Source of the DNA: Opitutia bacterium
GTDB lineage: Bacteria > Verrucomicrobiota > Verrucomicrobiia > Opitutales > Opitutaceae
NCBI GenBank assembly: GCA_947467625.1
Contig: CANIJN010000001.1
Location: 1 to 64,000, forward strand
Reading direction: 5' to 3'
Length of the DNA stretch: 64,000 bases
Position 1 is the stretch's first letter, and each line of letters starts with the position of its first letter. Positions 18,843 through 44,196 of the stretch are shown one piece after another. Under the pieces are notes generated by a model. The model did no database searches. It was not told where the DNA came from and was given only the letters and a program-made list of their open reading frames with translations. Both the position numbers and the translations under genes were made by a program.

Positions 18843-18919
18843 TGGTGCGGCCATAGGGAGTCGAACCCCAAACCTCCAGATTCGTAGTCTGGCGCTCTAT
18901 CCAGTTGAGCTATGGCCGC
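18843..18919 (-). tRNA. tRNA-Arg (anticodon ACG), CCA encoded
   Basis: Reverse complement GCGGCCATAGCTCAACTGGATAGAGCGCCAGACTACGAATCTGGAGGTTTGGGGTTCGACTCCCTATGGCCGCACCA; 7-bp acceptor stem; anticodon loop CTACGAA. Confidence 0.96.
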
Positions 18920-41942: not shown

Positions 41943-43922
41943 TCACGCTGAAGGCTCGATCGGCTTGGGAGCTTCCGCAACCGGAGCGACCGCCACGGGA
42001 ACGTCCGCCCCAACCGATGCAGCCACCGGCGCTTCAGCCACGGGCTCAGTTTCGACGACCGCCGCACGCACGGGCGCAGGCTCGGGCGCGGAAACAGGCA
42101 CCTCTGGGAAGTTCTCCGGATCATGCTCCTCGACCTCGACTTCCTTCTTCCGGGCCTCAACCACCGGCGGCGGCGCAAAGAGCCGTCCGTCGATAAATTC
42201 CGTCACGTACCCTTCACGCACCAGCCACATCAGATCGCCTTGCAGGCGGGCGAGCTTGGCACGCTCCTCGATGGTCAGCGTCGACTCAACCGGGGTTGCG
42301 ACCGGGATCGCCTCCGGGGAGGCCGCTCCTTCAGCGGCGGCGGACGTTGCCACCGGCGTGACGTCATTCGCTTTGACCGGAACCGTGATGCCGAGAAACT
42401 TCGTAGCCAGCTCGCTTGCGCGAATCATCGCATGACCCTCGATGAACGAAATGAGCGCTCCGATGCTGTCGGCGAAGGTCTGGCCGGGCACCCGGAACTT
42501 GCGCTTGACCGCGCAAACGTAGGAAACGCCCTTCGAGCCCTTTTTAAAGATCGTGAAATGCTCACGGCGCAAGCGACCGCGCAGCGCATTGGCAGTGTCG
42601 AGCGGGAACTTCCGTTGGCGCTCGAGCGCGCCTTCGACGGCACGACGGATTTCTCCCGGCGGCATCGTCTCGGCAATTTTCCCGTGGAAACGAGCGGTCT
42701 CAGTGGTACGCACGACTTTGTCGCGGGCCTCAGTCAGCAAGAAAACGCGTGCATCCTCGAGCGAATCGAAGCTCGGCACGGCCGGTGCGGCTTCAGTAAC
42801 TGGAGCCGTCGCCGAATCTGCCACGGCTACGCCGTCAGCCGCGGGTGCAGCCTCCGCAGCGTGCACGGAAACCGACGCCGGTTTCGCGGCAGCACCGGAA
42901 AGTTTCCACGTGTAACGGGTGGTTTTCTTCATCTTCTCGAGCCACTGATTCACGACCTCGGGGTCGCGGATGGTCTCGATGCGCCCGCGGAATGCCTCGA
43001 ACGACATGCCCGCTACTTTCGCGGCATGGTGCTGCTGGACGATCTGCGCGTAACGGTGATAGTTCGGCGGCCCGAGCAGCTCACCCGTGATGGTGCACTT
43101 GTTAATGACCTGATAGTTCCCCTTCGGTGGATCGACCTCGACCTCTGCCTTTTCAAAAAATTTATCAAGGTGATTGGCTAACACATGAGCCACGGCCGCA
43201 GCGTCGCTCTCAAAGGGCAAGGCGTCGGGCACGGAGATATGAAACGCGGCCTTGGCCGATTTCGCCGACTCGTCCGCCGCCGGGGCAGTCAATTCAGCGG
43301 TGGGCCGACGGCTCACGACGACCACAAATCGGTCGGTCTTCGCCACGACGGTGCGCGCAATTTCAAAAAGCTCGATCGTGCGGCACGTCTTCCGAATGGT
43401 CTGCACGAGCGTGTTAAAGCTCGTGTCCTCGGGGTAGAACGTCGCACTGAAAAACGGGCTCTCGTAGGGGCCATATTGAACGCGCTCCTGCGGTTCGCCA
43501 CGGCCACCACCGTAGCGCTGACCACCGCCACGGTAGTCACCACCACCGCCACCTCCACCACCACGGTAGTCACCACCGCCGCCACCCTCGCGGCGAGGGC
43601 CGCCGCCGCCGGAATACTCGCGGCGCTCGGGCGCGCCACCACTTGGGGCGGACGGAGCGCTGGGCGCTCCTTCACCAGGACCACCGGGACCGGCCGGTTT
43701 GCGAAAGGCGCGGCGATCGCGGTTCATGGGCGCGCCACCACTCGGCCCATCGCGCCGGTCGTCACGACGCGGGCGGTCAGCGCCCGGATCGCGTTCGCGA
43801 CGATCAGAGGGGGACGCTTTTTCTTGCGTCCATTGCGTGCCGAAACTGAACCCCTGAAGTTGGTTCAGATCGAGTTTGTTGAAATCCGCGGGCGGATTTT
43901 CTTTGGGGGCGTTGTCGTCCAT
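41943..43922 (-). CDS. large hypothetical protein with RGG-box N-terminal disordered region and conserved-looking globular core
   Basis: 659 aa; RRDDRRDGPSGG...GGGGPRREGGGGGDYRGGGGGGGGDYRGGGQRYGGGRGEP followed by folded segments (e.g. PPKGNYQVINKCTITGELLGPPNYHRYAQIVQQHH, GDLMWLVREGYVTEFIDGRLFAPPP) and an Ala/Pro/Val-rich tail. Confidence 0.8.
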   Translation of the reverse strand: MDDNAPKENPPADFNKLDLNQLQGFSFGTQWTQEKASPSDRRERDPGADRPRRDDRRDGPSGGAPMNRDRRAFRKPAGPGGPGEGAPSAPSAPSGGAPERREYSGGGGPRREGGGGGDYRGGGGGGGGDYRGGGQRYGGGRGEPQERVQYGPYESPFFSATFYPEDTSFNTLVQTIRKTCRTIELFEIARTVVAKTDRFVVVVSRRPTAELTAPAADESAKSAKAAFHISVPDALPFESDAAAVAHVLANHLDKFFEKAEVEVDPPKGNYQVINKCTITGELLGPPNYHRYAQIVQQHHAAKVAGMSFEAFRGRIETIRDPEVVNQWLEKMKKTTRYTWKLSGAAAKPASVSVHAAEAAPAADGVAVADSATAPVTEAAPAVPSFDSLEDARVFLLTEARDKVVRTTETARFHGKIAETMPPGEIRRAVEGALERQRKFPLDTANALRGRLRREHFTIFKKGSKGVSYVCAVKRKFRVPGQTFADSIGALISFIEGHAMIRASELATKFLGITVPVKANDVTPVATSAAAEGAASPEAIPVATPVESTLTIEERAKLARLQGDLMWLVREGYVTEFIDGRLFAPPPVVEARKKEVEVEEHDPENFPEVPVSAPEPAPVRAAVVETEPVAEAPVAASVGADVPVAVAPVAEAPKPIEPSA

Positions 43923-44196
43923 GTAGTCCGAAAATCCCGCCGAAGCGGGACGTGTGTTAGTAGCTAATTGGTGCGTGACCGTTCGTAATCAAAACGCGAT
44001 GTCCGCAGCTCCCCTGAGGGGTGGCAAGCAGTTTTCCGACGGAGCCACGACGATTAACGATATCGTCGAACCCCGCAGGGCCGCCAATAATGATCGGTTT
44101 CCTTTCCTCGCTGAGCGGTTGTGCCCTTGATTTTGCCGCCGGGTCTTTCAATACAATCTGCGTGACCACTCCCCATTTCCCGTCTGCACACCACTC

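Follow-up and report, generated by a model that had tools for sequence, protein, structure and literature searches.

Charged disordered regions with short conserved motifs have been linked to condensation in bacteria, and in Bacteroides thetaiotaomicron Rho (BtRho) such a region (IDR) drives RNA-dependent condensation (PMC13269538). The 659-aa protein described here, encoded in a 64,000-nucleotide stretch of Opitutaceae DNA that we refer to as the window, resembles BtRho and the RNase E bodies in that a folded core is joined to a conserved charged IDR with short motifs. It differs from BtRho in its unrelated core and in its Arg-rich, Lys-poor arm, whereas the BtRho IDR subdomain is rich in Lys and Glu (PMC13269538). 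A second point of reference is the PVC signature protein CT421.2 family, a small protein common to the PVC phyla, which is likewise conserved, confined to a clade (Verrucomicrobia and relatives) and of unknown function (PMC3444138); the family of the 659-aa protein, examined within Verrucomicrobiota, is by comparison multidomain and roughly 390-880 aa in size.

The FUS and hnRNP proteins, with their RGG/RG boxes, also carry an Arg/Gly-rich disordered region beside a core of nucleic-acid-binding type, but here only 2 RGG and 3 RG are present, set among mixed-charge segments such as RDRR and PRRDG, the repeats are not conserved, and no RRM domain was found in the 659-aa protein. With C2H2 zinc fingers the core shares a beta-beta-alpha topology, the pattern C-x2-C-x12-H-x4-H in 25 of 54 distant members and, in one lineage (f21), three tandem units, although S and D replace the Cys in the lineage of the window and a large undescribed core surrounds the units. 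The MukE and ScpB kite proteins have two consecutive winged helices and are the top-ranked structural neighbours of the C-terminal half, yet the match is non-significant, the arrangement differs (RMSD ~14 A) and there is no match in sequence. The component folds are known; their combination and the family as a whole are undescribed in the libraries and literature searched.

Results

Gene and family distribution

An intact reading frame of 659 codons with an ATG start covers exactly the interval listed in Table 1, whereas the plus strand across it is broken by stops. The initial annotation had placed a real gene at the correct coordinates but had left out its strand. In the genome to which the window belongs (5.59 Mb, 96% complete) there is one intact copy, and a sensitive profile (E up to 10) detected no paralog there. 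The neighbours in the window, which encode an HrpB-type helicase, a CPBP protease, an AIRS-domain (ThiL-like) protein, TsaE, a zinc-type dehydrogenase and a TonB receptor, converge with or diverge from the gene, and no conserved co-directional neighbour was found across 106 loci, so that the gene is probably transcribed alone. For lack of such a partner a function based on an operon was rejected, and the neighbours give no functional hint. In Opitutaceae the ThiL-like neighbour is frequently close by, though encoded on the strand opposite to the gene.

Table 1. Features of the gene, its product and its upstream region (positions in the window)
Feature	Residues	Position	Strand	Basis
Gene of the 659-aa protein, single copy, no operon	1-659	41943..43922	-	ORF, genome search, neighbours
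Conserved N-terminal short motif FNKLDLNQLQGFSFGTQW	14-31	43830..43883	-	Alignment of orthologs
Arg/Gly/Asp-rich, Lys-poor disordered arm	33-148	43479..43826	-	Composition, family-wide charge
RDRRxFrrPAG motif within arm, conserved in Opitutaceae	68-78	43689..43721	-	Alignment
33-bp tandem duplication yielding both DYRGGG units		43521..43586	-	Sequence repeat
Ordered first core block	149-345	42888..43478	-	AF2, conservation
Beta-beta-alpha unit 1, putative former C2H2 zinc finger	228-251	43170..43241	-	AF2, alignment
Beta-beta-alpha unit 2, hallmark CxxTGxLLGPPNYH	272-302	43017..43109	-	AF2, alignment
Disordered Ala/Pro linker, inserted in finger unit 3	346-380	42783..42887	-	Low pLDDT
Putative finger 3 remnant (full C2H2 in f21 lineage)	382-400	42723..42779	-	Alignment
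Predicted winged helix 1, basic segment RQRKFPLDTANALRGRLRREHFTIFKKGSKG	404-475	42498..42713	-	AF2, alignment, structure search
Predicted winged helix 2, disordered loop ~521-553	485-585	42168..42470	-	AF2, structure search
Acidic Ala/Pro/Glu/Val tail	607-659	41946..42104	-	Family composition
Leader hairpin GTCCCGC-TTCG-GCGGGAT + TTTC, 11 nt before ATG		43934..43951	-	Ortholog upstream alignment
Promoter-like boxes CTTGCC and GGACATC, upstream of hairpin		43998..44028	-	Alignment, ortholog pattern count

Orthologs with matching start, core and length were identified in 37 of 38 relatives. At wider range the gene was found in 109 of the 141 genomes of the class and, using a broader profile, in 269 of 370 good-quality Verrucomicrobiota genomes, essentially at one copy each. 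The protein family spans about three quarters of sampled Verrucomicrobiota as a single-copy gene; conservation across the phylum, which the initial annotation had named as a point to check, is borne out, and its attribution of the protein to 'this lineage' was too narrow. A contig scan with single-sequence patterns, which reach close relatives only, returned close matches labelled Opitutaceae or Verrucomicrobiota. In a tree of 86 members the sequences are largely grouped by taxonomic family, as expected for vertical inheritance. Families f25, f30 and most of f60 consistently lack the gene, several complete genomes among them, indicating that the protein is not universally essential; the gene may have been cleanly lost there or have diverged strongly, and one f60 genome (G186) does give a weak match (E 1e-4).

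Neither the window protein nor the family profiles matched Pfam, NCBIfam or PDB sequence families, and literature searches found no description of the family. Identity with DUF1045 or DUF5334 was rejected, the matches being far below the cut-off, as was a viral origin, given no BFVD match and no confirmed relative in viral contigs; plasmids gave no match either.

N-terminal motif, arm and tail

Across the phylum a near-invariant LDLxQL..FxFGTxW precedes the disordered arm. In Opitutaceae its conserved form (residues 14-31) is FNKlDLxQLQxFSFGTxW, and in distant members it reads, for example, LDLNFVPTWARKPP, with the Trp retained; this residue, W31 in the window protein, is kept in 163 of 171 members. 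The arm that follows is of mixed charge throughout the family (Arg ~22%, Lys ~2.5%), and its net charge is positive in all 169 members measured, while the C-terminal tails are net negative in 96% of the family; the Ala/Pro/Val-rich tail reported in the initial annotation is indeed present. Within the same proteins, R/(R+K) amounts to 0.90 in the arm vs 0.57 in the core (Wilcoxon P ~2e-29). This gap is present in every GC class, down to <45% GC, which rules out GC bias as the source of the Arg excess and suggests that selection favours Arg in the arm.

The repeats initially described at the N-terminus (GGGDYRGGGGGGGGDYRGGGQRYGGGRG) are present as well, and had been taken to resemble the RGG/RG boxes of FUS and hnRNPs. 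However, residues 1-150 hold no more than 2 RGG and 3 RG; the RGG count does not exceed what shuffles of this region yield (mean 1.27, P = 0.37; with the composition of the whole protein, P = 0.054), and across orthologs it is mostly 0-3. Arg and Gly, on the other hand, make up 19-20% and 14-23% of the N-terminal region in all identity bands of orthologs. Hence an Arg/Gly-rich disordered segment stands as conserved, whereas the RGG/RG repeats are few, variable and at composition level, for which reason the likeness to FUS and hnRNPs is weak and a FUS-like RGG box was rejected as a conserved feature. What the orthologs have in common is a region of mixed charge enriched in Arg (RDRR, PRRDG), and not an RGG box.

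Predicted fold of the core

An AlphaFold2 (AF2) model of residues 149-607, built on an alignment of 137 cores, reached a mean pLDDT of 88.5 and a pTM of 0.79. It predicts order from ~150 to ~335 and from ~380 to ~515, an end resembling a winged helix at ~550-585, and two disordered stretches interrupting the core, in agreement with the two structured blocks and winged-helix-like end segment proposed from the sequence beforehand. In the 137-core alignment, invariant or near-invariant residues include G268, C276, G280, P285, P286, N287, H289, W327, P440, F459, K460 and G571 (full-length numbering).

Within the first part of the core, AF2 predicts beta-beta-alpha secondary structure at residues 227-250 and 273-302, the arrangement of a C2H2 zinc finger. 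The ligand pattern of such a finger (C-x2-4-C-x12-H-x3-5-H) is absent from the window protein, which has S230, D233, H246 and H251 at these places, so that in this lineage finger 1 is unlikely to bind through zinc in the canonical way. An example of the first unit from distant members is CLECKRVFRQRANAEAHLLHDH, and the strict form of the pattern occurs in 25 of 54 such members, compared with 0.01 expected in shuffles; all 25 motifs occupy the alignment columns of the four window residues. Close members have lost the Cys and retained both His (105 and 103 of 117), and in many distant members the first position is C while the second is D, which represents an intermediate state. At the column of residue 233, Asp stands in place of the second Cys in 24 of 54 distant members, frequently next to an intact first Cys; this may be an alternative metal site. 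Of the hallmark residues of the second unit, C276 is found in 169 of 171 members and H289 in all 171.

In the f21 lineage there are three fingers, and the otherwise universal PPNYH loop belongs to the second. L161, L184, L185, L186 and L187 of this lineage carry three intact C2H2 motifs and sit on a long branch; L161 is a short open frame of 387 aa that lacks the Arg-rich arm. These three-finger members may preserve the ancestral state, or they may be an offshoot that evolves quickly. Profile searches independently touch C2H2 chains and models at the site of unit 1 below significance, and every match of the family to Pfam zf-C2H2 is below its cut-off. On the 86-member tree, which was midpoint-rooted for drawing only and has a long f21 branch, the state of the zinc motif changes at least six times. 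Taken together, the computations on these sequences indicate that the core is descended from C2H2 zinc fingers and that the Cys were lost in the lineage of the window; as the tree is only midpoint-rooted, it is by inference that we have this loss start from a multi-finger ancestor.

The C-terminal half is likely to consist of two winged helices, as a fold class. Following an initial helix, residues 424-470 are predicted to run helix-helix-strand-strand (276-290, 293-305, 309-313 and 318-322 in model numbering), which is the winged-helix pattern of helices followed by a two-stranded wing, and a second copy is predicted at ~485-585. Foldseek searches of the PDB with the whole core and with the C-terminal half gave no significant match, but the lists are largely made up of winged-helix proteins (MukE, ScpB, MarR, IclR, cullin WHB and FtsK gamma), which makes the fold class likely. 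Membership of any named winged-helix family is unsupported, no Foldseek match being significant. For the kite family in particular, the best match of the C-terminal half, MukE, has an E of 0.053, a TM of ~0.24 and a two-domain RMSD of ~14 A, and there is no PDB sequence match and no kleisin or SMC neighbour.

A hairpin in front of the start codon

In the upstream alignment of Opitutaceae orthologs a hairpin mostly precedes the start codon by 10-15 nt. Of 79 orthologs, 70 have a stem of 5 or more pairs within the last 60 nt before the ATG, and a stricter definition retains 57 of 79 vs 83 of 1037 other called genes, or 45 of 79 vs 10 of 1037 if a T-rich stretch has to follow, the start positions of the 1037 comparison genes being rough. 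Pairing holds in 95% of the cells of 60 aligned sequences, compared with ~50% or less in slid controls, and in 4 of the 6 pairs both partners have changed. In the genus of the window the stem has the reverse orientation (CCCGC...GCGGG, compared with GCGGG...CCCGC in other Opitutaceae) with its position unchanged, as would be consistent with selection on structure. A covariance model returned the leader of this gene as top match in 5 of 9 genomes (E 2e-5 or better) and only weak matches elsewhere; it misses the flipped hairpin of the window itself and the hairpins of three other genomes. These matches and the counts under the stricter definition mark the hairpin as specific to this gene and rule out a structure common to genes at large. 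Beyond Opitutaceae it was for the most part not observed, and no known RNA family was found for the leader, which gave a sub-threshold rsmX match and otherwise only tRNAs.

Boxes of the form CTTGCC and GGACACT occur in 49 of 79 orthologs (0.2% in shuffles), at a median of 71 nt before the ATG. Because they lie upstream of the hairpin, the latter is probably within the 5' leader of the mRNA, where it could be an attenuator or a translation-initiation element; the T-run is not universal. A similar CTTGC box is found upstream of a tRNA gene at 18846-18919 on the minus strand, so the box may be a housekeeping -35 element of the lineage.

Discussion

We propose, with a probability of roughly 0.5, that the 659-aa protein has a housekeeping role in Verrucomicrobiota, is encoded by a single-copy gene and binds nucleic acid, with RNA a likelier target than DNA. 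Nucleic-acid binding, already suggested in the initial annotation, would fit the C2H2-derived units, the predicted tandem winged helices, the basic segment of the first of them and the always-positive Arg-rich arm; it is the specific comparison with FUS and hnRNPs that loses ground. That annotation had also stated that its reading would fail if the core belonged to a known non-nucleic-acid-binding family or if orthologs lacked the Gly/Arg segment: sequence and structure searches of the core gave no match to such a family, and the segment is present in orthologs. The preference for RNA draws on two indirect pointers, the arm with its Arg and the hairpin of the leader, and it counts against nucleic-acid binding as such that a winged helix can serve protein contact only. 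From the computed fold organisation, conservation, finger descent, arm, acidic tail and hairpin we infer a mechanism of four steps. The folded core, with its beta-beta-alpha units and two winged helices, would make the specific contact with nucleic acid; the arm would add non-specific, multivalent contact with RNA and could support clustering; the Trp-containing motif at the N-terminus would dock a partner; and the hairpin before the start codon would control the synthesis of the protein itself, possibly by being bound by it. Self-regulation through the leader is thus possibly part of the system.

C2H2 fingers and winged helices are commonly DNA-binding, and both folds are predicted here. The protein might mainly be a DNA-binding chromosome organiser or a transcription factor, its winged helices reading or bridging DNA and its arm adding non-specific affinity, which we regard as a minority possibility. 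The basic segment of winged helix 1 and the best, though non-significant, structural neighbours, namely the SMC-complex proteins MukE and ScpB and winged-helix regulators that bind DNA, speak for such a role, but the alignment with MukE does not reproduce its arrangement (RMSD ~14 A, TM ~0.24), no kleisin or SMC gene adjoins, and a single-copy gene outside operons is unlike most local regulators. Arg-rich extensions are found in many ribosomal proteins, and together with the housekeeping-like distribution and a conserved hairpin in the mRNA leader, such as autoregulated genes for ribosomal proteins have, this would also suit a ribosome- or translation-associated factor whose core binds rRNA or the ribosome and whose arm contacts rRNA. 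We think this improbable, as the gene is missing from some complete genomes of the phylum and the window has no ribosomal gene neighbours. Least probable is an enzyme, for instance a nuclease built on a beta-beta-alpha unit with the invariant GPPNxH loop: although C276, N287, H289 and G268 are nearly invariant phylum-wide, more so than a purely structural core might need, no nuclease or enzyme family was matched, and in the f21 lineage the positions of these residues are those of finger 2, which points to structure or metal as their role.

A different kind of alternative concerns the repeats alone and is otherwise compatible with nucleic-acid binding, namely that the RGG-like units arose neutrally when simple repeats expanded in a gene rich in GC, and serve no function by themselves. 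We give this even odds. The 33-bp tandem duplication and an RGG number that is within the expectation from composition and varies between 0 and 3 across orthologs point in this direction, but the explanation accounts for the DYRGGG units only, and not for an Arg-rich, Lys-poor make-up in all members at all GC levels or for the conserved short motifs of the arm.

Returning to the proposed nucleic-acid-binding protein, the formation of condensates is possible by analogy, and the precedent of BtRho, with its charged IDR and short motifs, makes the idea a reasonable one. A more far-reaching version would be an ancient, phylum-defining organiser of ribonucleoprotein, in which zinc sites were lost repeatedly with the fold kept, the arm condenses with RNA and the protein limits or sets its own synthesis by binding the hairpin at the start codon; we consider this doubtful.

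We believe that a single-copy protein which roughly three in four sampled genomes of its phylum encode, with no family entry or description in the sources searched, deserves attention, also for its make-up of C2H2-derived fingers, tandem winged helices and an Arg-rich mixed-charge arm, which is unusual for bacteria. The leader hairpin makes autoregulation straightforward to test. Furthermore, the stepwise change of zinc ligands with the fold retained would provide a natural series for studying how metal-dependent folds become metal-free.
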